Shown in pieces: positions 2,112 through 28,199 of a stretch of DNA of 64,000 bases. Made by a program: the position numbers and the translations under genes. The first letter of the stretch is position 1; the number at the start of each line of letters is the position of its first letter. The DNA comes from Candidatus Nitrotoga arctica (GTDB lineage Bacteria > Pseudomonadota > Gammaproteobacteria > Burkholderiales > Gallionellaceae). The stretch covers positions 186,001 to 250,000 of the forward strand of contig NZ_OU912926.1 of assembly GCF_918378365.1 (NCBI RefSeq), given 5' to 3'. The notes beneath the pieces were generated by a model. The model was given only the letters and a program-made list of their open reading frames with translations. It did not search any database and had not been told where the DNA came from.

Positions 2112-4523
2112 ATGAAAAAAATCGGCCGTAATGATCCTTGTCCTTGTGGCAGCGGTAAGAAATATAAGCATTGCTGCCAGCCAAGCGGGGAAGTTCCTAT
2201 GGCAAAAACGCACTCATCAGATTTATCAATCCCCCAAATTATCCAGATCGCACGGGAACACCATCAAGCTGGACGTTTGTCTCAGGCAGAAGCTATTTAT
2301 CAGAAAATACTCCAAGTAGAGCCAAACCATCCGGATGCGCTGCATTTATTAGGGCTGATAGCCCGTCAGGGAGGAAAGAACGGGATTGCTGTTGGACTTA
2401 TTAGCAAGGCTATCCGTATAAATCCATCCAATCCAATTTATTACATTAATTTGGGGAATGCGCTCAAGGACCAAGGTCAGTTGGAGGAAGCCATCCTCAA
2501 TTATCGTCAAGCGCTTTCAATTAAGCCGGATTTTGCCGAAGTGCACAACAATTTGGGGAATGCCCTCAAGGAACAAGGTAATTTGGAAGCGGCGATTGAG
2601 AGTTTCCGTCGGTCACTCGTATTGAAGCCCGATTTTGCCGAGACGCACAGCAATCTGGGAAATACGCTCAAGGATCAAGGCCAGCTGGAAGAAGCAATAG
2701 CATGTTACGGCCAAGCACTTCTGCTCAAGCCGGATTATGCTGAGGCATACAATAACTTGGGAACTGCTCTCAAGGCACAAAACAAGCTGGATGCAGCAAT
2801 CGGAAGTTACCGGAAGGCAGTTTCGCTCAAGCCGGATTTTGTTGATGCGTATAACAACTTGGGAAATGCGCTCATGGCACAAGGCAAACTGGAAGCGGCA
2901 ATTGTGAGCTTCCACCAGTCGCTCTTAATCAAACCGGATTATGCCGAGGCGCACAATAATTTGGGGAACGCGCTTAAAGATCAAGGCAAATTGGATGCAG
3001 CGGTTGAGAGCTTCCAGAGAGCGCTAGCGTTCAAGCCGGATTTTGCCGAGGCGTACAGTAACCTTGGGCTCGCGCTTCAGAAACAAAGTAAAATGGATGA
3101 GGCGATTGCCTGTTACAACAAAGCGCTTTCAATCAAACCGGATTATGCCGAAGCGTACAACAATCTGGGACTTGCGCTACAAGAGCAAGGTAAATTGGAT
3201 GGGGCGGTTGACAGCTACCACAAAGCACTCGCGCTCAGGCCGGTTTATCCCAAGGCTCATAGCAACCTGCTTTTTACCCTGAGTTTTTATTCCAAGTGCT
3301 TGCCTGATAACCATCTCGCAGAAGCACGTCACTATGGCAATCAAGTGATGGCAAAGGTCCAACCGTATACAAGTTGGCTTGTTTATCCAGAAAACACAGT
3401 GGGACGAGGTATGCTGCCTCTGCGGATTGGCCTGGTTTCTGGAGATTTTAGAACGCATCCCGTTGGTTTTTTCCTGGAGAGTATTCTCGCGAATTTGAAC
3501 CCTGCTCGAGTAGAGCTGGTTGCATATTCGACGTCTCCACAAGAGGACGAACTCACCGCCCGCATTCGGCCTTGTTTTGTTGCCTGGAATATGATTGTGG
3601 GTCTTAGTGATGAGGCTGCGGCCCGGAAGATTCACGATGATGGGGTTCATATTCTCATTGACCTGACAGGGCATACTGCCAGCAATCGTTTGCCGATGTT
3701 TGCACTGAAGCCTGCTCCGGTGCAAGTAAGTTGGTTGGGCTATTTCGCTACCACCGGGTTGCCGACGATAGACTATCTTCTGGCAGACCCGGTATCGGTG
3801 CCGGAAACTCACCGGGAGCACTTTACTGAAACAGTGTGGTATCTGCCAGAAACCCGGCTTTGCTTCACCCCACCTGCAAATAGAGCAGGGCTGGAATTAA
3901 CCCCCTTGCCGGCAGTGCAGAATGGCTATATCACTTTTGGTTGTTTCCAAAATCTTACCAAGGTAAATGACACTGTGCTGGCTGCATGGGGACAAATTTT
4001 CCTTGCCTTGCCAGAAGCTCGACTGCGGCTGCAAAGCAGTCAGCTGAATTGCTCAATCGCGCGCGAATCTCTACAGCATCGGTTCGTTCAAGTCGGGATA
4101 ATGCCGGAGCGAGTAATAATGGAAGGATATGTTCCTAGAGAGGATTATCTCGCGGCATATGCTAACGTGGATATCATTCTGGACACATTTCCTTATCCCG
4201 GGGGCACTACAACCTGCGAAGCGTTGTGGATGGGGGTGCCTACCCTGACCCTCGCCGGCGGCACATTGCTCGCCCGCCAAGGTGCCAGCATGCTAACCTG
4301 TGCCAGTCTGGAAGATTGGATTGCCAGCGATGAAGGTGACTATGTAAACCGGACTCTGTTTCACGCCACTGACATTAATCGTTTGGCGCAACTGAGGTCA
4401 GGATTACGGCAGAAAGTGCTTGCTTCGCCACTTTTTAATGCCCCACGTTTTGCCCTGCATTTGGAGGATGCATTGCAAAAAATGTGGCAACAAAAGATGT
4501 ACTCGGAAGCTGACCCTAAATGA
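2112..4523 (+). CDS. SEC-C / TPR / O-GlcNAc transferase-like (GT41) protein
   Basis: The 803-residue protein has three parts. Residues 1-23 form a SEC-C zinc motif (CPCGSGKKYKHCC; Cys 10, 12, 21, 22). About ten TPR units of 34 residues follow (about 41-384), nearly identical to each other. The C-terminal half (about 435-790) is an OGT/SPINDLY-type GT41 domain, with GLVSGDFRTHPVGFF, DLTGHTASNRL, PVQVSWLGYFATTG and DTFPYPGGTTTCEALWMG. GT41 enzymes transfer a sugar from UDP-sugar to Ser/Thr (or Asn in HMW1C relatives), using the TPR solenoid to hold the target. No signal peptide is seen, so it should act in the cytoplasm. The methyltransferase and glycosyltransferase genes downstream suggest glycosylation of a protein or surface glycan; the target is unknown. 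The SEC-C fusion is unusual. Confidence 0.88.
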   Translation: MKKIGRNDPCPCGSGKKYKHCCQPSGEVPMAKTHSSDLSIPQIIQIAREHHQAGRLSQAEAIYQKILQVEPNHPDALHLLGLIARQGGKNGIAVGLISKAIRINPSNPIYYINLGNALKDQGQLEEAILNYRQALSIKPDFAEVHNNLGNALKEQGNLEAAIESFRRSLVLKPDFAETHSNLGNTLKDQGQLEEAIACYGQALLLKPDYAEAYNNLGTALKAQNKLDAAIGSYRKAVSLKPDFVDAYNNLGNALMAQGKLEAAIVSFHQSLLIKPDYAEAHNNLGNALKDQGKLDAAVESFQRALAFKPDFAEAYSNLGLALQKQSKMDEAIACYNKALSIKPDYAEAYNNLGLALQEQGKLDGAVDSYHKALALRPVYPKAHSNLLFTLSFYSKCLPDNHLAEARHYGNQVMAKVQPYTSWLVYPENTVGRGMLPLRIGLVSGDFRTHPVGFFLESILANLNPARVELVAYSTSPQEDELTARIRPCFVAWNMIVGLSDEAAARKIHDDGVHILIDLTGHTASNRLPMFALKPAPVQVSWLGYFATTGLPTIDYLLADPVSVPETHREHFTETVWYLPETRLCFTPPANRAGLELTPLPAVQNGYITFGCFQNLTKVNDTVLAAWGQIFLALPEARLRLQSSQLNCSIARESLQHRFVQVGIMPERVIMEGYVPREDYLAAYANVDIILDTFPYPGGTTTCEALWMGVPTLTLAGGTLLARQGASMLTCASLEDWIASDEGDYVNRTLFHATDINRLAQLRSGLRQKVLASPLFNAPRFALHLEDALQKMWQQKMYSEADPK
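2424..3245 (+). repeat. 102-bp tandem repeats encoding TPR units
   Basis: Inside the GT41-like gene, about eight consecutive 102-bp units encode the TPR consensus (N-x-GNAL-x-DQG-x-L-x-AAI-x-SY-x-AL-x-KPDFAEA). The units are close in DNA as well as in protein, which points to recent amplification or gene conversion. Copy number could vary between strains and could be miscounted in short-read assemblies. Confidence 0.85.
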
Positions 4524-16983: not shown

Positions 16984-17472
16984 ATCGTCTATAGATTAAA
17001 TTGGTGAACAGGCTGCCTGGCTTCTAGTCACGTCAAATTTGTTCTATAAGCTCAACTCAAATCAAACTTAGTCGAGTTGACTTATAAAGTCATTCGCAGA
17101 TAGCTAAGGCCTGAAGCACAGGCTATCGGATTGAAAGTGCAGGTGACGTATCAAAGCGTGCCGCTGCCAACGATCACATCACGATGCCGGAGAGCAACCC
17201 AGGATGCGTCGCTTCTTAGCTTTCAAAAGCCACGCGTAAGATATGCTGCTTGAAACCGTATTGGTAGCAGATTTTATAATACTACCTGACTCGTGGGCAA
17301 ACTCAGGGCCCGCTCCGACCATCTATAACCCGTTGTTCACCCAGCGACAGTGGGCATCAATTCGCTGTTGAATCCGTTGGATTCTACTGTTGCCAACCTA
17401 CCTCACAGTAAGGTGCGGGTCAATTTACGAATCTTGGGAGTGAATTAAGCCTGTCAAAAAAATAGCAGAAAC
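16984..17472. other. gene-free stretch at the left edge of the NXR cassette
   Basis: Together with the leader up to 17727, this makes the longest gene-free stretch in the window. I see no tRNA, intact ORF of note or IS end. A 7-bp inverted repeat (TCAACTC ... GAGTTGA, about 17052-17080) is the only clear small structure. Its base make-up resembles decayed coding DNA in places, but I cannot assign a relic. The acquired cassette's left junction probably lies here. Confidence 0.5.
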
Positions 17473-17521
17473 TTGATCTAGATCAAATCGACTTTAATTT
17501 ATCCGCGTAGATTCGCGATCA
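17473..17521 (+). promoter_or_regulatory. FNR/CRP-family palindrome and probable nxrA promoter
   Basis: TTGATctagATCAA at 17473-17486 is a perfect match to the FNR/ANR/DNR-type consensus TTGAT-N4-ATCAA and a perfect 14-bp palindrome. Its centre (17479.5) lies 41.5 bp before 17521, the spacing of a class II activated promoter. A fair -10 (TAGATT, 17508-17513) sits at the right place and no -35 is needed in that design. The transcript would have a leader of about 207 nt before nxrA. A regulator sensing oxygen, NO or redox is likely; which one binds is unknown. Confidence 0.65.
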
Positions 17522-17727
17522 TTCACTACCCGATTTTTGCTTCCATAAAAATCCGTATATTCAGGGTGTGACTGACTGTGGTATGTACTGAAAAATTAGT
17601 TTTTGCGGCATGAATTATTGTTGTTTTTTTGTTTCAAGTTAAAGTGGTGAATGAAAATTACTCGGATTGATGCCTTAACATAAAGCCGAGAAGATAATTT
17701 AATTTAAATTAACATAGGGGTGACTAA

Positions 17728-20700
17728 ATGATGGAAATCAAGAACAACATAGGCAGGCGCAGCTTTTTAAAGCTGTCTGCCACCGCCGGACTCGCTGTAA
17801 TGGCCAATAACGCCTTTGCAGCATCACCATTTCTGAAGCCGTATGTCGTTGACAACCCTCTGAAGTCCTACCCGAATAGAGACTGGGAGAAGGTTTACCG
17901 GGACATGTTCCATGTTGACAGCGAATTTATATTTCTGTGTGCGCCGAATGACACGCACAACTGCCTGCTTAAGGCCCACGTAAAGAATGACGTGGTCATC
18001 CGCATCTCGCCGTCCTACGGCTACGGAGATGCCGAAGATATGGATGGAAACCGTTCCAGTCACCGCTGGGAGCCGCGGATCTGTAACAAGGGCATGGTCA
18101 TGAACAGAAAGGCCTATTCTGACAGACGGCCCAAAGGCGCGATGGTCAGAACCGGCTTCAAGGCTTGGGCAGAAGCGGGTTATCCGCGGACGGGCGCAAA
18201 CGGCTTCCCGGATCAAAAATATCTGCAACGCGGCAAAGAACCCTTCATCAAACTGCCCTGGACCGAGGCTTACGCATTGGCAGCAGGCGCATTGGAGAAC
18301 ATTGCCCGGACCTATTCCGGTGACAAAGGTGCTGCGTTACTGACGCGCCAAGGCTATGACCCCGAGATGATTGCGTCGATGCACGGCTGCGGCTGTAAGA
18401 CCATGAAATTCCGGGCCGGGATGGCCGCCTTGGGCGTGTTAAGAATCTATTCGCTCAAGCGGTTTTCACAAGGATTGGCGCTATTGGACGCCTATGTCAG
18501 AAATATCGGACCCGACGAAGCGAGTGGCGCCAAAGTATTGGACAGCTATTCCTGGCACACCGATCTGGCGCCCGGATGTCCGATGGTGACCGGTCACCAG
18601 ATGCTGGATTACGAGTTCATGGTCTATGAGCACGCCAAGCTGATTGTCTTCTGGGGAAACAACTTCGTCTGTACCAAGATGCCTGACCTTCATTGGGTCA
18701 GCGAGTCGCGGCTCAAAGGCTGTCATATCGTCGACATCTCCATTGATTACCACGCGACCTCGAACAAGGCGGATGACGTCATTATTCTTCGGCCCGGTAC
18801 CGATCCGGCGCTGGGTCTGGGGGTGTGCCATCTGCTCATCAAGAATAATCAGTATGACGAGAATTATCTGAGAGCCAATACGGACATGCCGCTGTTGATC
18901 AGAACGGATAACTGGAAAAACCTGAAGGCTTCGGACATTATCGCGGACTACAAGCTGGCGGACCTGACGCACCATCTTAAGGTGATGAAGCCCGGTGAAA
19001 GTCCGACGATGCCGCCGGCGTTCCAAGCCACGGCCTTTGTTTCGGAAGAAATCCGCAAGTTCTGGGGCGACAATGTAGTCTGGGATAGAAAGACCAACAA
19101 AGCCGTACCGCTGACCCGGGATGAATGCGGCGCGCGCTATGCGGCGAAGGGCGTCGACTCGGCCTTGACCGGCGATTATGAAGTGACCCTGGTCGACGGC
19201 AAGAAGATCAAGGTTACGACGGTATTCCAGTTGCACAAAGAATACCTGGAGGAATACACGGCCGAGAACACCTCGATCATGACCGGCGTTCCAATGGAAG
19301 CCATCGTTGACCTGGCCAACCTGTTCCACAAGCACAGAGGGCAAGGCATTATCAGCACCGGTGCGGGAACCAATCACTACTTCAATTCGACCCTGAAGGA
19401 TCGTGGCTTCATGTTGTTATCGGCCCTGAGCGATAACGTTGGCCATATTGGCGGATGTACGTTTGGTAACTACGTGGGTAACTACCGGCAGTCCGTCTTT
19501 GGCGGGTTTGGTCAGTACCTTCTGGAAGATCCGTTCAATCCTGAACTGGATGGCCGTAAGATGGTCACCAAAATGGCTCACTATACCGATGACGAATCTG
19601 CCCATTACTACAACTATGGCGATCGGCCCTTAAGGAACGGAACCCGGTTGCTGACGGATCCTGGCCATATGCCGGCACCGACCAAGGTTCTGTGGCAAGC
19701 GAACTCCAACTCCTCACTGGGCAATGCCAAAGGTCACTACGACATGGTCGTCAATACCCTGCCGAGATGGGAAGCGATATTTTACAGTGACTGGAACTGG
19801 ACTGCCTCTTGTGAATATTCCGACATCGTCTGGGGTGTGGACTCGTGGTTGGAAAACAAGCATACCGACATGGCCTGCTCCTGCTCCAACCCGTTCCTGA
19901 CCGTTTCCCCGATCACCCCGCTGAGGCGGTTCCAGGATACCGTAGGCGATGCCGAAGTGCCTGCCGGAATCTTCAGAGCCTTTACCGCGCTGACCGGTGA
20001 TCAACGGTTTGCCGACTACTTCAAGTTTGTGGGCACCAACCCTGCCGGCAATCCGGCGGATCGGGATTCCGAAGTTTATGGTCAACGGGTTCTCAACGCC
20101 GGCTCCGCCACCCGCGGGATGGTTTTTGCTGAGATCCGGGAAAAAGCCAAGCGAGGCGTTCCGACCATCTTCATGGCCAGAACCTATCCGAGAATCAGCG
20201 GCTGGGAACAAACGGCTGAAGGCGGCGGCTTGCCTTGGTACACCAAGAGCGGTCGGTTGGAATTTTACATGGATGACCCGCGGTTGATTGATGGCGGCGA
20301 GAATCTCACCGTCTATCGCACCCCGATTGATTCAAGCCACTACGAGCCGAATGTCATCGTCGGTAACAGCCGCGCGTTTGCATTGATGGAAACCCCCGAG
20401 ATGCGTGGTCTGGAAAGAATGGGCAACAGCCTTAAAATTGCCGAAAACCGGCAAGGGCGGAACGTCATCCTGACGACCAAAGAACTGATGGCGACCACCC
20501 ATCCGCTGCGGCCGCACGGCTATGAGTTCTGCTTCAATTCGCCCAAGTACCGGCACGGCGCTCACACCACCCCGATTGATACGGACTTGATGACCCTGTG
20601 GTGGGGACCGTTTGGCGACATCTACCGTCATGACAAGCGTCAACCGTCCGTGGGTGAAGGATTCGTGGACGTTAACCCGCTCGACGCCAAGCGCTTCGGT

Positions 20701-21237
20701 ATCGATGAAGGCGACTATATCTGGGTGGATGCGGATCCCGGCGACCGTCCTTACAAAGGCTGGAAAGAAGGTACACCGGAATACGCCCTGGCCCGGTTCA
20801 TGGTCAGATGCAGATACTTCCCCGGTATGTCGCAAGGCTCCATGCGGATGTATTACAACGCCTATGCCGCCACGTATGGCAGTATGGAAGGTGCGCGGAC
20901 CCGGGCGGATGGATTGGCGAAGAGCCCAAGGACCAACTATCAAGCCATGTTCCGCTCCGGAAACCATCAAAGCTGCACCCGCGCGTGGATCAACCCGACC
21001 AATACCACGGATACCGTGGCCAACAAGAAGGTCTTTGGACAGGAAATTATTATCGGGATGCAGAATGACGTCCACTGCGCCAATGGTTCTCCCAAGGAAT
21101 CGTATGTGAAGATCGAGCTGGCTGAAAAAGGCGGCGTCAACGGGGGTGTTTGGCATATTGCCGCTAAAGGCTACCGGCCGACCTATGAGAGCCTTCAAAT
21201 GAAGACTTATCTCCAGGGCGGGTTTACAAGCAGATAA
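17728..21237 (+). CDS. nxrA: nitrite oxidoreductase alpha subunit NxrA
   Basis: The 1169-residue protein is a Mo-bis-MGD enzyme of the type II DMSO reductase family and should oxidise nitrite to nitrate in the periplasm. A Tat signal (GRRSFLK, hydrophobic stretch, AFA) covers about residues 1-31. The Fe-S (FS0) segment reads Cys71-x3-Asp75-x3-Cys79 with Cys119 (RICNKGM); Asp where NarG has Cys is notable. SWHTDLAPG places the likely Mo ligand at Asp279, aligned with NarG DLPP. The length suits periplasmic NXR (about 1150) rather than selenate, chlorate or ethylbenzene enzymes (about 900-980). NarG is similar in size but lacks a full Tat signal. AGGGG precedes the double ATG. Arg codons AGA and CGG are common, unlike the neighbours. 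A reversed role (nitrate reduction) cannot be excluded from sequence. Confidence 0.92.
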
Positions 21238-21273
21238 TTACGCCTCCAGGGCGGTTTTATCAGCAGATAATGA
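21211..21273 (+). repeat. 33-bp tandem duplication across the nxrA stop codon
   Basis: Two copies start at 21211 and 21244 (CTCCAGGGCGG...), matching at 26 of 30 positions. The period of 33 bp keeps the frame: copy one encodes LQGGFTSR and the nxrA stop TAA, copy two encodes LQGGFISR and TAA-TGA in the 3' untranslated region. Either the gene end was duplicated after its stop, or a longer C-terminus was shortened by a new stop. Confidence 0.85.
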
Positions 21274-21285
21274 CGGGTGTGCAGC

Positions 21286-21308
21286 CGCCGCCCTGAAGCA
21301 GGGCGGCG
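21286..21308 (+). other. strong hairpin between nxrA and nxrB
   Basis: CGCCGCCCTG, a 3-nt loop (AAG) and CAGGGCGGCG form a perfect 10-bp stem. The following TTCTTGAAA is not a T-tract, so full termination is unlikely. It could stabilise or separate the nxrA and nxrB parts of the mRNA and set their ratio. It shares GGGCGGCGTT with the terminator after nxrC. Confidence 0.7.
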
Positions 21309-21349
21309 TTCTTGAAATTGTGAAATAATTTTGTAAATGGAGATCTACA

Positions 21350-22507
21350 ATGGCAAAAGTTAGAAATTGGCAACTGGGCAGGGAAATGGATTACCCCTAC
21401 GAAGAAAACAGGCCAGGTCGGCAAGTATCCATGTTATTCGACTTGAATAAATGTATCGCCTGTCAGTCTTGTACCATGGCGTGCAAAACGACCTGGACGG
21501 CTGGTAAAGGCCAGGAAACGATATTCTGGAATAACGTGGAATCGAAGCCTTATGGATTCTATCCGCTTGCTTGGGATGTGAAGGTTTTGGCCCTCCTGGG
21601 AGAACAGGCGCAACCCTGGTCAGGCAACAAATACAACGGCACGACGATCTTTGAAGACCTGGGCATGAATCAACGGATCAAGGGTTATCTGCCCGATGAA
21701 ATGGACTATGCGCATCCGAACCTTGGGGAAGATGAGTGCCTTAAAATCCTGGATGGTGAAGGGGATTATATCAAGGGTCCGACGCATAAGAACTGGGGTT
21801 TCTTCTTCCCGCGGATATGTAACCACTGTACCTTCCCCGGTTGTTTGGCAGCGTGCCCGAGAAAGGCGATCTACAAGCGGCAAGAAGATGGGATCGTTTT
21901 GATTGATGCGTCCCGCTGCAGAGGATACAGAGAATGCGTTGCAGCTTGTCCTTACAAAAAGTCGTTCTACAATGACACCACACGGACCGGTGAAAAGTGC
22001 ATATCGTGCTATCCGAAAGTAGAGGCTGGGTTGATGACGCAATGCGTTACTCAATGCATCGGAAAGATCCGTCTCTTTGGTTTCAAGTCAGCCGATTACG
22101 ATAAGATCACCAGCAAGCAAGTCCGGGAAAACAACCCGATCGATTTCCTGGTGCACGTGAGGAAGATTGCACTGCCGATCTATCCCCAGTTCGGTACCGA
22201 GCCAAACAACATGTACTTGCCGCCTGTCCATGTTAACCCTGATTTCCTGGCCCAAGTATTTGGCCCCGGCGTTGAGAACTCCATCAAGCAATACCGGAAT
22301 GCTGGCAAGGACAAGGAGCTTCTAGCCGCGTTGTTACTCTTTGGAACGACCGAACGGATCTGCGACACGTTCAAGCTTGAGGGTAATGAGACGGTTGGTT
22401 ATGATCCACAAGGAAAAGAGATTATCCGGGTTCCCTTGACTGAACCTGTTTATATCAGGCAGGTCAAGAACTTGAAGACCGGCGCATTTCTTACCAATAA
22501 CTCATAA
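21350..22507 (+). CDS. nxrB: nitrite oxidoreductase beta subunit NxrB
   Basis: NxrB is the four-cluster Fe-S subunit that carries electrons from NxrA to NxrC. Cysteine groups are visible at 35-45 (CIACQSCTMACK), 157-169 (CNHCTFPGCLAACP), 190-200 (CRGYRECVAACPYKK) and 217-236 (CISCYP ... QCVTQCIGK), the NarH/NxrB pattern. It begins MAKVRNWQLGREMDYPYEE, typical of periplasmic-clade NxrB, and has no signal peptide. It would therefore be exported with NxrA through Tat. The 385 residues are near the family length (about 410-430), slightly short. The gene starts 112 bp after nxrA, with AATGGAGATCTACA as ribosome binding region. Confidence 0.93.
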   Translation: MAKVRNWQLGREMDYPYEENRPGRQVSMLFDLNKCIACQSCTMACKTTWTAGKGQETIFWNNVESKPYGFYPLAWDVKVLALLGEQAQPWSGNKYNGTTIFEDLGMNQRIKGYLPDEMDYAHPNLGEDECLKILDGEGDYIKGPTHKNWGFFFPRICNHCTFPGCLAACPRKAIYKRQEDGIVLIDASRCRGYRECVAACPYKKSFYNDTTRTGEKCISCYPKVEAGLMTQCVTQCIGKIRLFGFKSADYDKITSKQVRENNPIDFLVHVRKIALPIYPQFGTEPNNMYLPPVHVNPDFLAQVFGPGVENSIKQYRNAGKDKELLAALLLFGTTERICDTFKLEGNETVGYDPQGKEIIRVPLTEPVYIRQVKNLKTGAFLTNNS

Positions 22508-22514
22508 GGGGCGG

Positions 22515-23636
22515 ATGATGAAAAAACTATTAATAGCCGCGTCACTTCTGATGATCCCGGTTGCGACTCCTGCTTTTGGGAGTGATGCTGCGCACGGGCC
22601 AGCGCACGATTTGGCGATTCCAATTATTGCGGTTGATAATCCTGGCCAGTATGGGGGCCACGCGTTTCATGGTTCCTTCAAAAGGCTCCCACCCGTTCGT
22701 CTGGATGGGGGGGAAACGTATAATGAGGGCGTCATCAAGTCCAAAGCAGTCAAGGGAGAAATCCCGATGGACCCGTTGAACCGGACCTGGCATCAGGAAG
22801 ATCCAGTCAGGGAAACCTCTTATAATCAGTACAATCAGAGCTGGGAGCACGCCCCGGCCACGATCTGGAGTGATGCTTCGGCCACTGAAGTTCCCATGGG
22901 GCCGCAGAACCTGGTGATGCCGGGTTTGGTCGTGGCTTCCGTGCCGCTGGTGAAGATCAAGTCTATCCATAATGACAAGGATATTGCCTTCTTGTTAACG
23001 TGGTATGACTCAACCAAGTCTGAAACAGAAGTAATGGAAGACAAGTTCTCTGATGCGATCGCCATTATGTTCCCGGTGAATGCGGGATCGGAGCCCTCCT
23101 TCATGATGGGTGACGAAGAGAATCCTGTTCACATTGTTTACTGGAAGGCCGCCTGGGAAAGAGATATCGAGTTTGGATATCAAGACGTCAGAGATGCTTA
23201 CCCCAATTACAACTATGATATGTATCCGGAAGTGATCCCGGCAATTGGTCAAACAATTGATACCCCTATCAGACGTTATAATGAAGGTCAAAGGCAATAT
23301 TTGGCGGCCTTTAAGCTCAGAAATCTCAGCAGAGTTGACCCTGAGAGGTTAACACCGGTGGAAGAGCTTAATGCTGTTGGCTTCGGAACATTGACGCGGC
23401 AGGCCACCAATAATGCAACCGGCAATGGCGTCAGACGGTTTGGCTACTGGTCGGTTGTCATCAAACGTCCTTTAAACTCCGGTGATGTTCAGGACTCCGT
23501 GCTTAAGCCTGGATCCAAGACCATGATGGCGATCGCTGCCTGGGATGGCAAAAATCACAATAATGGCGCTGGCGGCAACAGGGGGCCACGCAAGAACTAT
23601 TCAAACGGAGGCTGGATACCGCTTGAAATTGAATAG
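22515..23636 (+). CDS. nxrC: nitrite oxidoreductase gamma subunit NxrC (heme b type)
   Basis: The 373-residue protein has a Sec signal (KKLLIAASLLMIPVATPAFG) and an ethylbenzene-dehydrogenase-related gamma-subunit domain, as in EbdC, DdhC and SerC. These bind heme b through Met and Lys. SFMMGDEENPVHIVYWKAAW (about 195-214; Met197/198, Lys211) is the likely heme region, but I cannot fix the ligands. No C-terminal or internal membrane span is seen, so the complex may be soluble in the periplasm. It follows nxrB by 7 bp with AGGGGCGG as ribosome binding site. A strong terminator comes right after it. It would pass electrons to a c-type cytochrome. Confidence 0.88.
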   Translation: MMKKLLIAASLLMIPVATPAFGSDAAHGPAHDLAIPIIAVDNPGQYGGHAFHGSFKRLPPVRLDGGETYNEGVIKSKAVKGEIPMDPLNRTWHQEDPVRETSYNQYNQSWEHAPATIWSDASATEVPMGPQNLVMPGLVVASVPLVKIKSIHNDKDIAFLLTWYDSTKSETEVMEDKFSDAIAIMFPVNAGSEPSFMMGDEENPVHIVYWKAAWERDIEFGYQDVRDAYPNYNYDMYPEVIPAIGQTIDTPIRRYNEGQRQYLAAFKLRNLSRVDPERLTPVEELNAVGFGTLTRQATNNATGNGVRRFGYWSVVIKRPLNSGDVQDSVLKPGSKTMMAIAAWDGKNHNNGAGGNRGPRKNYSNGGWIPLEIE

Positions 23637-23657
23637 TCGTAATTGATTGACATGAGG

Positions 23658-23690
23658 GGGGCGGCGTTAAAACGCCGCCCCACTTTTTAT
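23658..23690 (+). terminator. rho-independent terminator after nxrC
   Basis: GGGGCGGCG and CGCCGCCCC (23658-23681, loop TTAAAA or smaller) form a very stable stem, followed by CACTTTTTATTT. The chaperone's Shine-Dalgarno (AAGGGGAT) starts just after the T-tract, with its ATG at 23704. Read-through would give low chaperone expression from the nxrABC promoter. Confidence 0.9.
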
Positions 23691-23703
23691 TTAAGGGGAT
23701 AGA

Positions 23704-24444
23704 ATGTTAACGACGAAATCGGAAACAGAGTTGGCCCTCGCGAGGGCAGATGTTTACAGGTTTTTATCAATGGCCTTTGTCTATCCAGACAAAGATAGAC
23801 TCGCCACGTTGCACGAACTTGCCTCCGATATGGATAGTTCAATCAGCCTGCTTCCTTATGATATGAAGGAAGAGTACCAGGCCTTTACCAGTCTGATCGA
23901 GACCGTCGACGTGACCGCGCTCCAGCCGGATTTTACCGAGATGTTTTTAACCCGTATGTTTTGCCCGTCGAGTGAAACCACCTATGGGAAAAACAGTTTC
24001 AACCAGCCGAATATTCTGGGCGACATCAGTGGCTTCTATAAAGCCTTTGGCTTTGTCATGAAAGACGATGCCGGGGTTTCATTTGATCAGATAACCGTCG
24101 AGCTTGAGTTCATGAGCTTTCTGGAATTAAAGATCGCCTATGCCCTGGATCAGGCGATGGAAGAGAATATCGATATCTGCCTGTCGGCGGAAAGAAGGTT
24201 CCTTGAGCAGCATATCGGGAAATGGACGGGCGTGTTCGGTGAAAATCTGGCGGCGAGAGCGAATGAAGCCTATTACCGAAACCTGGGCCTGTTGTTATCA
24301 AAATTCATGGGGTCGGAACTTAAATTCTTTGGCATTGAAGTGGACAGCAGAATAAAAGAATTGCCCAAATCGGATTATGAGGGGCCGGTGGATTGTCCTC
24401 AACAGACCGGCACCGAAATGGATGAACCTTTGCCTCTTCATTAG
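23704..24444 (+). CDS. TorD/NarJ-type chaperone for NXR assembly
   Basis: The 246-residue, all-helical protein is of the TorD/DmsD/NarJ group, which hold molybdoenzyme alpha subunits until cofactor insertion and guard the Tat signal. Seen here are ALARADVYRFLSMAFVYPDKDRL at the start, PDFTEMFL, the PSSETTYGKNSFNQPNILGDISGFY block typical of chaperones of type II DMSO reductases, and VELEFMSFLELKIAYAL. Its place after nxrABC points to NxrA as client. No signal peptide is present. Transcription probably comes in part by read-through of the terminator just upstream. Confidence 0.88.
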   Translation: MLTTKSETELALARADVYRFLSMAFVYPDKDRLATLHELASDMDSSISLLPYDMKEEYQAFTSLIETVDVTALQPDFTEMFLTRMFCPSSETTYGKNSFNQPNILGDISGFYKAFGFVMKDDAGVSFDQITVELEFMSFLELKIAYALDQAMEENIDICLSAERRFLEQHIGKWTGVFGENLAARANEAYYRNLGLLLSKFMGSELKFFGIEVDSRIKELPKSDYEGPVDCPQQTGTEMDEPLPLH

Positions 24445-24457
24445 AGGAGTGTTATTC

Positions 24458-24523
24458 GTGTCATTTAAATTGTGTATAGTAGTAGGGTGCTCAGTTGTAT
24501 GTCGTGCTTATGTCATTTTGTAG
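24458..24523 (+). CDS. possible 21-residue hydrophobic micro-ORF
   Basis: A GTG at 24458 lies 7 bp after GAGGAGT and opens 21 codons starting MSFKLCIVVGCSVVC, ending in TAG. The AGGAGT-x-TTATTC spacing repeats that of the ATG at 24581. It is Cys- and Val-rich and could insert in a membrane. The length is too short to exclude chance. It may be a leader of the next gene. Confidence 0.22.
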   Translation: MSFKLCIVVGCSVVCRAYVIL

Positions 24524-24580
24524 ATCTTTTTTTGAAAAAAATGTATCGTACTGTCCGATCGCTGAATTAAGGAGTTATTC

Positions 24581-24790
24581 ATGGACAATGGCAATGTGAT
24601 GGGAAGGCGCAAATTCTTTAGCAGATTTTTTCCTGCTCTTACAGAAACGATCGTTGAAAAAACTAAAGACGAGACAAAAATATCGACCAATTCGAGCGTT
24701 ATCAGACAAACGCCTACCCTCGATAAGATCGAAGTGGCGGAGGGAGTCCAGGAGGATGTCGGAAGAAAGTACCCTTGGGTCGGGATGTGA
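24581..24790 (+). CDS. 69-residue unknown protein with twin-Arg start
   Basis: A strong ribosome binding site (AAGGAGTTATTC) precedes the ATG, so this is likely a real gene. The protein starts MDNGNVMGRRKFFSRFFPAL; the GRRKFF looks like a Tat twin-arginine motif, but no hydrophobic core follows. Instead the chain is polar (VEKTKDETK), ending EDVGRKYPWVGM. I recognise no family. Its place between the NXR chaperone and the Mrp-type ATPase suggests an assembly role, for example binding the same chaperone that reads NxrA's Tat signal. That is only inference. Confidence 0.6.
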   Translation: MDNGNVMGRRKFFSRFFPALTETIVEKTKDETKISTNSSVIRQTPTLDKIEVAEGVQEDVGRKYPWVGM

Positions 24791-24817
24791 CCTCATTTAT
24801 GGATATGAAGGGGTCGC

Positions 24818-24883
24818 ATGCTGAGAAAGCTACATATAATAAAGTCAAAATGGGTTGTCAACCTTGAGCAATGTGTTGGCTAA
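24818..24883 (+). pseudogene. possible N-terminal fossil of a 4Fe-4S protein
   Basis: An ATG with a good ribosome binding site (GAAGGGGTCGC) opens 21 codons and then stops. The end reads KWVVNLEQCVG followed at once by TAA. VVNLEQCVG-C is how many ferredoxin-type subunits begin their first CxxCxxC cluster, so the stop falls exactly inside the motif. It may be the stump of a deleted Fe-S gene. Nothing similar continues downstream in any frame I read. The alternative is a chance peptide. Confidence 0.35.
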
Positions 24884-24935
24884 GATGATTATTGAAATAA
24901 TTGTTTAGTCATTAAATAACCAGAGAGCGATTGAA

Positions 24936-24956
24936 GATGGGGTGATCAACCCCATC
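24936..24956. other. hairpin upstream of the Mrp-type gene
   Basis: GATGGGGT, 5 nt, ACCCCATC form a perfect 8-bp stem 36 bp before the ATG at 24992. It is followed by AT-rich DNA but no T-run. It could be a weak terminator or attenuator. No clear Shine-Dalgarno stands before that ATG (ATCACGAGAATGTTTAA). Confidence 0.5.
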
Positions 24957-24991
24957 ATGAAGATAATTATTTATATCACGAGAATGTTTAA

Positions 24992-26008
24992 ATGACGAAA
25001 ACTATTGAAATAAAGAACATGAGAGACACCCGGACGGTGGCTGCGCCAGCGAAGGACTGCGGATATTTTCATGGCTGTCAAACATGTGACGAAAATGATA
25101 CGTGTAAGCTGGACCGTGCTGCTCATAAAAAATGGTTGATTAATAAGCGGATGGCGGATATCAAGTACAAAGTTCTTGTCGGTAGTAACAAGGGCGGCGT
25201 GGGCAAAAGTACCACCACGGTTAACCTCGCCTGTGCCTTGGAAAAACTGGGTTACAAGGTTGGCTTGGCGGATGCCGACCTTCATGGGCCAAATATTCCA
25301 AAGATGCTTGGGATTGAGAATGTAAGACTTCGCGGGGATAAAGACGGCATCGCCCCGCACATCATGCCTGCGGGGTTAAAGGTTGCGTCTTTGGGTTTGT
25401 TGATAGAAGACCAGAACGAGCCAGTTGTCTGGAGAGATGCAGTAAAGTACGAATTTATCATTGAACTCCTTGGGAATATTACCTGGGGGAAGCTCGACTT
25501 CTTGATAATAGATCTACCACCCGGCACGGGGAATGAACATATTACGATCATGGATTTTATTCCCAATCTGGATGGGGTTGTTGTTGTAAGCACTCCGCAG
25601 GATGTTGCGCTTCTTGACGCAAGGAAAATGATCTCTTTTGTAAAAGAAAGAAATACACCCATTATCGGAATTGTTGAGAACATGAGCGGTTTGATCTGTC
25701 CACACTGCAGTGGTGAGATTGACGTATTCAAGAAGGGCGGAGGAGAACGGGTCGCGAGTGAACTGGGCGTGCCATTTATTGGCGCGATCCCGCTCGATAG
25801 CGAGATAACCATTTGTGCGGATAAAGGAGTCCCCGTTGTGCAGGCTTATCCAGAATCTCCTTCAACCAAGGCATTTATGGCGGTTGCCGAAAGATGCGCG
25901 ATATTTTTAGGCGCTCATCCAGAACAGGAGAGCGGCGGCGGGGCTGCGCAGTTTAGAGAGGTTGCGAATGTAACCGCAGGTGCTACAGTTCAAACAATAG
26001 TGAGTTAA
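24992..26008 (+). CDS. Mrp/NBP35-type Fe-S cluster carrier ATPase
   Basis: The 338-residue P-loop ATPase shows the deviant Walker A of the Mrp/ApbC/NBP35 group (VGSNKGGVGKSTTTVNLA, about 64-81), LADADLHGPNIPKMLG, IIDLPPGTGNEH and the CxxC metal site ICPHC. Its N-terminus has four extra Cys (CGYFHGCQTC ... DTC, about 23-37), resembling the N-terminal cluster site of eukaryotic NBP35 more than typical bacterial Mrp. Such proteins hold and hand over 4Fe-4S clusters. In this setting NxrA and NxrB, with five clusters in all, are the likely recipients. This is an inference from position. Arg codon usage resembles the nxr genes. Confidence 0.83.
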   Translation: MTKTIEIKNMRDTRTVAAPAKDCGYFHGCQTCDENDTCKLDRAAHKKWLINKRMADIKYKVLVGSNKGGVGKSTTTVNLACALEKLGYKVGLADADLHGPNIPKMLGIENVRLRGDKDGIAPHIMPAGLKVASLGLLIEDQNEPVVWRDAVKYEFIIELLGNITWGKLDFLIIDLPPGTGNEHITIMDFIPNLDGVVVVSTPQDVALLDARKMISFVKERNTPIIGIVENMSGLICPHCSGEIDVFKKGGGERVASELGVPFIGAIPLDSEITICADKGVPVVQAYPESPSTKAFMAVAERCAIFLGAHPEQESGGGAAQFREVANVTAGATVQTIVS

Positions 26009-26010
26009 GG

Positions 26011-26724
26011 ATGAATATTCATGCTGTTCGCCGGTGGCATGGTCTTGTTGGAGCGGTCATCGTATTTTTTTTAGTCTATCTTTTAGTGTCCGGATTAGCT
26101 ATAAATCATGTTGAGATACTTAAATTAGATAAACGGGAAGTAAGCTATCCTTGGCTAATGCGCTGGTACGGGATTCATGTTGCTGATCCAACTCAAGGGT
26201 ATTTGCTGGGTAAAAGCTATTTTTCTTGGGATGATGAAAAATGGGTTTTAGACGACAAATTATTGTCCAGTAGCGCGGGGCAACCAGTTGGAGCAGTCGA
26301 GGTTAGGGGTATTAATTATGTTGCGACCGCCGCCGCTCTTTATTTGTATCAATCGGATGGACAGTTGCTAAATAAGCTGGAAAAACAATCGCTACCCGCT
26401 TATCCAATTTTGGCGCTTGGTAAAATGGGTAGCAATGTCATGCTGCAAACTCCCTCTGCCGTATTTGCTAGTGTTGATGGCCTGACTTGGGAAAAATCAA
26501 GTAGTACTGGAATGACGTTGTCTTCTCTACAAGACCTTCCTGCTGATGTTAAGCGTCGCTCGGCTGACATTCTTGAATCGGGCATACCGCTACAGCGTAT
26601 ATTGCTGGATGTGCATAGCGGCCGTATTTTTGGGCGTTATGCGATATGGGTGATGGATATTGCGTCGCTTGTATTGTTTGCATTGGGTTTAAGCGGGTTT
26701 TGGCTTTACTGGAGGCTAAGGTAA
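26011..26724 (+). CDS. PepSY-type transmembrane protein
   Basis: The 237-residue protein has an N-terminal span (GLVGAVIVFFLVYLLVSGLA) after MNIHAVRRWHG. A periplasmic loop of about 165 residues follows, then a C-terminal span (IASLVLFALGLSGFWLYW). The LLDVHSGRIFGRYAIWVMD just before the last span is characteristic of PepSY_TM proteins, which sit near cytochromes, metal uptake and ferric reductases. The function here is unknown. It begins 2 bp after the Mrp-type gene, so may share its transcript, but its codon use is more like the host genes. Confidence 0.75.
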   Translation: MNIHAVRRWHGLVGAVIVFFLVYLLVSGLAINHVEILKLDKREVSYPWLMRWYGIHVADPTQGYLLGKSYFSWDDEKWVLDDKLLSSSAGQPVGAVEVRGINYVATAAALYLYQSDGQLLNKLEKQSLPAYPILALGKMGSNVMLQTPSAVFASVDGLTWEKSSSTGMTLSSLQDLPADVKRRSADILESGIPLQRILLDVHSGRIFGRYAIWVMDIASLVLFALGLSGFWLYWRLR

Positions 26725-26920
26725 CTAGAGTTAAGCGGTTTTTTATATGTTTTTGTTTGCAGATGATTTTTATTGGAAAAAGGCAAATTGGCACGAGAAC
26801 ACTGGCTTCATTATTGTAGTTATTGATCCGGCTAGGATATGTTTGAGCTTATTTGCCAGTTAAACCACACAGTGACGGCACCTTCCACTTCAAATTTCAC
26901 TTGGCCGTATCAATAAAATT

Positions 26921-28001
26921 GGCTGTGTTCGTAAATCATATTGCTAGCTCATTTGGTGAGCCACTTTGACGTGCATACTATGTGTCACGGTACATGTGCA
27001 CCGGTTCATGCAGGAGGCAGAATGAGAAAGCTGGAGCTGAAACGAATCACTGCCGCGTTGCGGCACCTGACGCCCGATCAGCGTAAGAGTGTAGCGGTTG
27101 AATTGGCAGCGCTGGATGCGCAGTCGGCATCGACTGTGTTTATCGAGGGGCGCTTCGCATGTGGCGCGACGTGCCCACATTGTAAGTCTATGCACGTGAT
27201 TCGGAACGGCCACGCCAACGGATTGCAACGCTATCGTTGTCGGGAGTGCTGCAAGACGTTTAGCGCCCTGACCGGCACCCCGTTGAACCGGTTGCATAAG
27301 CGCGGCAAGTGGCTTGACCAGGCGCAGGCACTGCACGACGGTCAGACGCTGCGAGAGACTGCCCGTGCCTTGCGAATTCACCTCAGCACCGCACACCGCT
27401 GGCGGCATCGCTTTCTGGCGGCACCCAAGACCGTCCAGCCGCAGGCACTGACTGGCATTGCCGAGGCTGACGAAACGATGTTTTTGCTGTCGTTCAAGGG
27501 AAAGCGGAGTGGTTTGGATCGCAAGGCACGAAAGCGCGGCGGGAAAGCCACCCAGCGCGGCCTCTCGCACGAACAGGTGCCGGTGCTGGTTGCTCGTAAT
27601 CGTGCCGGTGCAACGATGGATTGTGTGCTGAAGGCAATGGACATGGCAACGCTGTCTGTTGCGCTGAAACCGTTCTTGACGAAAGATGTTGTACTCTGTA
27701 CTGACGGTAGCAAGGCGTTTGCCGGCGCAGCACGTAAGTTGGGCATCGAGCATCACGCTGTCAACCTGTCAGCAGGCATCCGCGTCGACGGGGCTTGGCA
27801 CGTGCAGAATGTCAACGCTTATCACAGCCGGCTCAAAGCCTGGGTACAAAAATTTCGCGGTGTGGCCACGTGTTACTTAGACAACTATCTCGGCTGGTTT
27901 CGTGCCCTCGACCGTGAAATAGGCAATAGACCGAAACCCCAGCAGTGGCTGGCTATGGCGATCGGTGAAACGGTCTAACAACATGATTTATGAACACAGC
28001 C
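26921..28001 (+). mobile_element. IS1595-type insertion sequence
   Basis: The ends are inverted repeats of about 24 bp: GGCTGTGTTCGTAAATCAT at the left (26921 on) and, read on the minus strand, GGCTGTGTTCATAAATCAT at the right (to 28001). Flanking 8-bp target duplications are ATAAAATT (26913-26920) and ATAAGATT (28002-28009), one mismatch. The element carries one transposase and no passenger gene. The imperfect duplication suggests an insertion that is not very recent. It lies just downstream of the NXR cassette. Confidence 0.88.
27022..27978 (+). CDS. IS1595-family (ISXO2-like) transposase
   Basis: The start at 27022 has a clear ribosome binding site (CAGGAGGCAG). An in-frame upstream ATG-like start would run into the IS end. 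The 318-residue protein has an N-terminal zinc ribbon (CPHCKSMHVIRNGHANGLQRYRCREC), a helix-turn-helix (LRETARALRIHLSTAHRWRHRFL), and an ISXO2-like DDE domain: GIAEADETMFLLSFKG (Asp), VVLCTDGSKAFAGAARKLGIEHHAV (Asp) and NVNAYHSRLKAWVQKFRGVATCYLDNYLGWFRAL. No frameshift is seen, so it is potentially active. Confidence 0.93.
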   Translation: MRKLELKRITAALRHLTPDQRKSVAVELAALDAQSASTVFIEGRFACGATCPHCKSMHVIRNGHANGLQRYRCRECCKTFSALTGTPLNRLHKRGKWLDQAQALHDGQTLRETARALRIHLSTAHRWRHRFLAAPKTVQPQALTGIAEADETMFLLSFKGKRSGLDRKARKRGGKATQRGLSHEQVPVLVARNRAGATMDCVLKAMDMATLSVALKPFLTKDVVLCTDGSKAFAGAARKLGIEHHAVNLSAGIRVDGAWHVQNVNAYHSRLKAWVQKFRGVATCYLDNYLGWFRALDREIGNRPKPQQWLAMAIGETV

Positions 28002-28199
28002 ATAAGATTAAAGTCATGCGAACTTAAATTCGGCGTGTAAATTTAGTACATTGCTGGGAGCTCGTTTATCCCGATTTATAACCTATTGTGTCTGCTTTTT
28101 CTTGCATCGTCTTTATATATGCACTGTCGATCCGAACATTAACCTGAGGTGCAATTTATTTGCAGGACGAGTTTTCTGAACATAGATATTGCAGCAAAG

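Follow-up and report, generated by a model that had tools for sequence, protein, structure and literature searches.

The window analyzed here, a stretch of 64,000 nucleotides, spans C1:186001-250000 of a closed, single-contig Candidatus Nitrotoga genome (G000; 3,301,051 bases, 99.64% complete). Five genes lie as one block at window positions 17728-26008: nxrA, nxrB, nxrC, a chaperone gene and the gene of an Mrp/ApbC ATPase (Table 1), an arrangement that is far beyond chance. An earlier note on this DNA had placed nxrA, nxrB, nxrC, a TorD-type chaperone and an Mrp-type ATPase in one block, and all five genes were found at that place and on that strand. We read the block, with high confidence, as locus A of the periplasmic nitrite oxidoreductase (NXR) of a Candidatus Nitrotoga species, one of three copies that appear to be kept alike by gene conversion. 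The cassette is a complete, published enzyme and is not new; the value added here lies in its copies and in a variant of the molybdenum (Mo) motif at locus C.

Table 1. Features of the nxr block and of the segments it shares with loci B and C
Feature	Window position	Strand	Remarks
nxrA, catalytic Mo subunit, locus A (QM form)	17728..21237	+	1169 aa; families, structure match, tree; RRSFLKL twin-arginine motif
Mo-site motif Y-4x-D-11x-QM, NxrA residues 274-292	18547..18603	+	codon 292 = 18601-18603, Met in locus A, Gln in locus C
Main nxrA part where locus C departs from A and B	17970..19488	+	nxrA nt 243-1761
nxrB, Fe-S subunit, 385 aa	21350..22507	+	Fer4 domains; identical sequence across loci A, B, C
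nxrC, putatively exported heme-b subunit, 373 aa	22515..23636	+	Pfam EB_dh; heme ligand Met198 aligned
TorD/DMSO-reductase-II-type assembly chaperone, 246 aa	23704..24444	+	Pfam PF02613
Mrp/ApbC-type Fe-S carrier ATPase, 338 aa	24992..26008	+	PF10609; shortened to 319 aa in locus B, missing in locus C
Stretch over which locus A matches locus B (C1:690 kb) exactly	17426..25948		6 differences of the aligned stretch all at its left edge, 17410-17425
Segment common to loci A and C	17677..24450		98.2% over 6774 columns

Pfam domains of the block scored above their cut-offs, and the NCBIfam models for type II dimethyl sulfoxide (DMSO) reductase subunits and chaperone scored below their curated cut-offs. 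The twin-arginine translocation (Tat) signal and the length of about 1170 amino acids (aa) that the earlier note gave for NxrA agree with the Tat-type RRSFLKL leader, identified by eye from the sequence, and with the actual 1169 residues. NxrB, the iron-sulfur (Fe-S) subunit, has Fer4 domains and 17 Cys residues, among them Cys 35, 38, 41 and 45. NxrC begins with a hydrophobic stretch, also seen by eye, and its heme-b type was borne out by EB_dh above cut-off and by alignment of Met198 with a heme ligand, the NCBIfam heme-b gamma subunit family remaining below cut-off. The chaperone matched PF02613 above and TIGR03482 below cut-off.

The best solved relatives of NxrA, NxrB and NxrC were the three subunits of Kuenenia NXR (7b04), with 777, 378 and 89 bits, respectively. 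Asp279, Asn74 and Asp75 of NxrA aligned with the Mo ligand Asp275, the substrate residue Asn70 and the FS0 ligand Asp71 of Kuenenia, and NxrC Met198 aligned with the heme ligand Met155; the roles of the Kuenenia residues are those given in PMC8387239 (papers cited by PMC number are used in excerpt throughout). In addition, NxrC Lys360 aligned with a Lys of the ethylbenzene dehydrogenase C subunit. The Mo motif Y-4x-D-11x-QM reported for N. fabula is present in NxrA of loci A and B; NxrA of locus C departs from it in that the motif ends in QQ.

A scan of named genomes identified 13 NxrA loci, 12 of them in Candidatus Nitrotoga and 1 in a Nitrosomonadales metagenome-assembled genome. NxrA was full or nearly full at 10 of the 13 loci, with 94-98% identity, and the other 3 were at contig ends; one of the 94-98% genomes was titled N. 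fabula. These results agree with the Nitrotoga-type host that the earlier note had named, and the 16S rRNA check that it had suggested found two 16S rRNA genes in the window genome. RuBisCO is also present. In N. fabula, Kitzinger et al. (2018) found two identical loci, each with nxrA, nxrB, a putative nxrC and a chaperone gene, and they reported Tat and general secretion (Sec) leaders, the Y-4x-D-11x-QM motif and a clade sister to the NXR of Nitrospira, Nitrospina and anammox bacteria (PMC6050957). As both motif and clade fit the enzyme examined here, the cassette was already known.

Three loci and gene conversion

The window genome contains nxrA at C1:203728 (locus A, in the window), C1:690020 (locus B) and C1:548904 (locus C). 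In locus B a stop interrupts mrp after residue 319, and locus C ends after the chaperone gene, without mrp. The same three loci were found in orthologous surroundings in a second closed Nitrotoga genome (G008), in which mrp is cut at the same residue in locus B and is missing from locus C. G008 is probably strain AM1P, for which PMC10728634 gives six nxr locus tags that form three adjacent pairs, with a spacing that fits the G008 loci. A Great Lakes study inferred two nxr copies per genome from short reads (PMC9239080).

Loci A and B of G008 differed at 2 of 8517 columns. Within each closed genome the nxrB, nxrC and chaperone genes were identical across the three loci, yet they differed between the genomes. 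Over the region that starts at nxrA nucleotide (nt) 3510 and runs through the chaperone gene, G000 and G008 differed at 171 sites, and there were 0 substitutions between loci A and C within either genome. Because the copies are identical within a genome and different between genomes, the simplest reading of these sequences is that conversion has occurred between the nxr copies.

The remaining differences were concentrated in nxrA. In G000, 83 sites (19 residues) distinguished locus A from locus C, and in G008 60 sites (21 residues) did so; most fell within nt 243-1761, and a few others extended as far as nt 3430. Upstream, blastn similarity between the C and A copies ended at about -51 in G000 and -36 in G008. 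The surroundings of locus C matched between the two genomes.

Two neighbors of locus A were also noted. A PepSY_TM protein is encoded directly after mrp (window 26011-26724) in locus A and in locus A of G008, and not in loci B and C. Farther downstream lies a stretch of about 1180 bases with an IS1595-family transposase gene (window 26823-28002), which is absent at the same place in G008. The IS1595 element was rejected as the vehicle of the cassette, since G008 lacks this insertion next to locus A. A plasmid origin was rejected as well, the best plasmid match being 41.9% and from a haloarchaeon.

The locus C form of NxrA

When both C copies were compared with both A copies (G000 and G008), 7 codons carried a change common to the C copies, and 4 of these were replacements: T288S, M292Q, S/N425E and R454K. 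Loci A and B have ATG as codon 292, where locus C has CAG. Replacements made up 4/7 of the paralogue-specific codons versus 7/117 of the species-specific codons (Fisher p 0.001), and within residues 67-600 the figures were 4/7 versus 4/37 (p 0.014), although both p values are generous because neighboring sites are not independent. The mirrored pattern, which is expected about equally often and gauges chance, occurred in 2 codons with 0 replacements. Species-specific sites were found close to codons 288-292 on both sides (nt 822 and nt 921).

Conservation of residue 292 was assessed in an alignment of 240 homologues, namely the matches listed in two lists. Among these 240 matches Asp279, the Mo ligand, and Gln291 were invariant, and position 292 was T in 151, A in 51, N in 20, S in 7, G in 6, C in 4 and M in 1, the sole Met entry being the Nitrotoga cluster; Gln was found in 0/240. 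Positions 425 and 454 varied widely among the same matches, so that those two replacements say less. Met292 was present in 10/10 further nxrA sequences read from the genus. A search with the exact pattern returned the QQ form in 2/158 family genomes, which are the two closed ones. In G003, G013 and G015 the upstream flank of locus C runs into nxrA at a contig end; as the nxrA copies in these genomes are collapsed or cut, the form at position 292 is not readable. The downstream flank was less telling, as it matched 16/19 genomes, often away from contig ends. Among the titles and abstract openings covered from the literature on Nitrotoga nxr copies or NXR gene conversion, none described such an nxr paralogue variant.

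These differences are somewhat more probably explained by neutral drift, in a redundant copy untouched by conversion, than by a second form of the enzyme. Relaxed constraint would make divergence between the C copies richer in replacements than divergence between the A copies, and the ratio of nonsynonymous to synonymous substitution rates (dN/dS) in the patch was 0.12 between C copies and 0.04 between A copies. The pattern shared by the two genomes is limited to 7 codons, positions 425 and 454, half of those replaced, are among the widely varying ones, and N. fabula has only two, identical, loci (PMC6050957). A functional split is also disfavored in that the C copy is resolved in two genomes only and that this nxrA patch is variable across the genus anyway. 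However, drift does not readily account for the enrichment of replacements among the paralogue-specific codons, for their absence from the mirrored pattern, for the species-specific sites that closely flank codons 288-292, or for a locus C dN/dS that is still far below 1.

These last observations leave room for a tentative alternative, which we consider possible although the evidence leans the other way. Some Nitrotoga may run two NXR forms that share NxrB and NxrC: loci A and B would supply the QM form, and locus C, under its own upstream region, the QQ form. Selection would then keep the four residues apart despite conversion, and the two forms might be tuned differently, e.g. in affinity, nitrite tolerance or reversibility.

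Phylogeny, distribution and alternative identities

The NxrA tree contained 57 of 74 prepared rows, the 74 being a choice that included 32 of P0002-P0120 and 18 of P0121-P0240; the rows dropped were the short ORD_L090 and PHY_L094 and 15 homologues. It was built without a mixture model and the program flagged long outgroup branches. The outgroup consisted of ClrA, Thermus NarG and a Halobaculum protein, and the anammox side was anchored by Kuenenia (P0123); no rows were named Nitrospira, and no Nitrobacter NXR, SerA or PcrA was included. When rooted with the outgroup, the tree resolved two sister clades, each supported at 100/100, of 40 rows around Nitrotoga and 14 anammox-type rows. NxrA thus lay outside the Nitrospira/anammox-type clade, as represented by Kuenenia, and did not group with NarG, represented by the Thermus protein. 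The sister of the five Nitrotoga rows was a group of nine, comprising four rows from two other Gallionellaceae genera and five further homologues. The tree check proposed in the earlier note therefore separated NxrA from ClrA and Thermus NarG, with SerA and PcrA outside the tree. In three genomes of the order (L087, L088 and L089) NxrA fell inside the anammox-type clade and was 39% identical to the window NxrA.

Several points weigh against our reading of the block. NXR function in the window strain is a prediction from its genes, and the clade includes putative nitrate reductases as well as one characterized nitrate reductase (NAR; PMC6050957), so that family placement cannot separate oxidation from reduction. 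For the terminal oxidase, the window genome matched the ccoN model below cut-off only, so that this step is taken from the literature. Homogenization is also not total: the nxrA-nxrB gap in loci A and B of G000 contains about 33 bases that are absent from locus C and from all G008 copies.

The cassette could accordingly be a periplasmic nitrate reductase run reductively, as in some relatives within the clade, and Kuenenia NXR does work in both directions in vitro (PMC8387239). We regard this as very improbable, since NxrA shares 94-98% identity with its counterparts in named Nitrotoga genomes, N. fabula included, and the N. fabula isolate, whose Mo motif is conserved in the window NxrA, grows by nitrite oxidation (PMC6050957). 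By analogy with this isolate we infer that the window host oxidizes nitrite. An oxyanion reductase of the selenate, chlorate or perchlorate type, which belongs to the same superfamily (TIGR03479 match, far below cut-off), is extremely improbable: the score of NxrA was 777 bits for Kuenenia NXR compared with 156 for perchlorate reductase, ClrA lay outside the NxrA clades with the outgroup at 100/99, and NxrA has 1169 aa versus 914 in ClrA, the tree thus excluding ClrA and NarG and the score alone excluding PcrA.

NxrA matches were found in 12/19 genomes of the genus, or 12/15 of those of good quality. At 1e-100 or better, 14/158 family genomes matched, from 3/15 genera: Nitrotoga, g6 (G089, with three NxrA copies) and g10 (G111, with two, one cut by a contig end). 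With the window genome included, 9/399 sampled order genomes matched at 1e-100 and 21/398 sampled phylum genomes at 1e-150. A 2023 pangenome study of 103 genomes found nxrAB to be exclusive to Nitrotoga within the family (PMC10734462); the relatives in G089 and G111, with 64-68% identity, would extend this range. The statement in the earlier note that among betaproteobacteria only Nitrotoga-type organisms are known for such an NXR held for the host and is, by sequence, incomplete for the family. Its proposal that the cassette was assembled or acquired as a unit drew partial support from one G089 locus, in which the order nxrA-nxrB-nxrC-chaperone-mrp recurs. The second G089 locus had nxrABC only within the fetched stretch and the third was cut. 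Taken together, the reading in the earlier note was largely correct in the main, partly supported overall, and not new.

Other observations concern the relatives. The NxrA copies within G089 (L045, L046 and L047) and within G111 (L048 and L049) were 85-90% identical to each other and not homogenized, and in the 4 of these 5 copies that showed the motif the position of residue 292 was T in one and C in three. Three genomes of the same genus with completeness of at least 91% (G010, G017 and G018) had no NxrA match; G018 carried an MtrB/PioB-type porin, present in 2 of the 10 genomes searched for it. No true NxrA was reported in 108 subglacial Nitrotoga single cells (PMC12361377, in excerpt). The relative L094 (G817:C195) contained one in-frame TAG. 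On a Natronococcus occultus plasmid (L082), an NxrA-like stretch, a 4Fe-4S protein, a TorD chaperone and an Mrp-like NTPase form one block. The NxrA-like stretch lacks annotation and aligned in two pieces, 42% identical to the window NxrA, and the adjacent P-loop NTPase was 35% identical to the window Mrp ATPase over 240 residues. In Nitrotoga loci A and B, as in one G089 locus, the cassette has the Mrp ATPase as its neighbor, and membership of the ApbC family makes a part in loading Fe-S clusters into NXR a reasonable assumption.

Proposed mechanism and comparison with known systems

NxrA with its Mo-bis(pyranopterin guanine dinucleotide) cofactor would oxidize nitrite to nitrate in the periplasm. 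As proposed in the literature for the genus, NxrB would be exported together with NxrA through Tat, and electrons would reach heme b in soluble NxrC by way of the NxrA and NxrB Fe-S clusters and would continue to c-type cytochromes and the oxidase. The chaperone, and presumably the Mrp ATPase, would act in cofactor and Fe-S loading before export. The three cassettes, if held alike by gene conversion, may benefit the cell through raised gene dosage. Locus C has a distinct upstream region, and in both closed genomes four residues, including one within the Mo motif, set its NxrA apart from that of locus A; this copy might also differ in function.

With these copies, one cell naturally contains two NXR variants that share the B and C subunits and differ in a few NxrA residues, one in the Mo motif. 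If the kinetics of the two forms differ, residue 292 would offer a way to study what determines nitrite affinity or direction in NXR; mutational studies cannot be done on anammox NXR (PMC8387239). As copies are collapsed in draft genomes, such variants are easily missed.

Nitrospira moscoviensis is likewise a nitrite oxidizer with several NXR copies, five in number and differentially regulated (cited in PMC9239080), although it belongs to another phylum and its NXR to another clade (PMC6050957); the excerpt of PMC9239080 mentions no paralogue-specific Mo-motif residues in its copies. For Nitrotoga AM1P, transcript changes were reported for the nxr tags (PMC10728634), whereas the present analysis compares the copies. 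The closest known system is the N. fabula NXR (PMC6050957), which shares nxrABC with chaperone, the Mo motif, the presence of more than one locus and the sister-clade position; its Tat leader on NxrA and Sec leader on NxrC have putative counterparts here, as read by eye. The Mrp ATPase that adjoins the cassette here is not mentioned beside the N. fabula NXR in the excerpt of that paper, and N. fabula has two identical loci versus three here, with a QQ motif end in locus C. The NXR of Kuenenia stuttgartiensis (7b04; PMC8387239) has three matching subunits and shares the Mo ligand Asp, the substrate Asn, the FS0 Asp and the NxrC heme Met, but belongs to a separate sister clade and has a Thr (Thr288) opposite residue 292.

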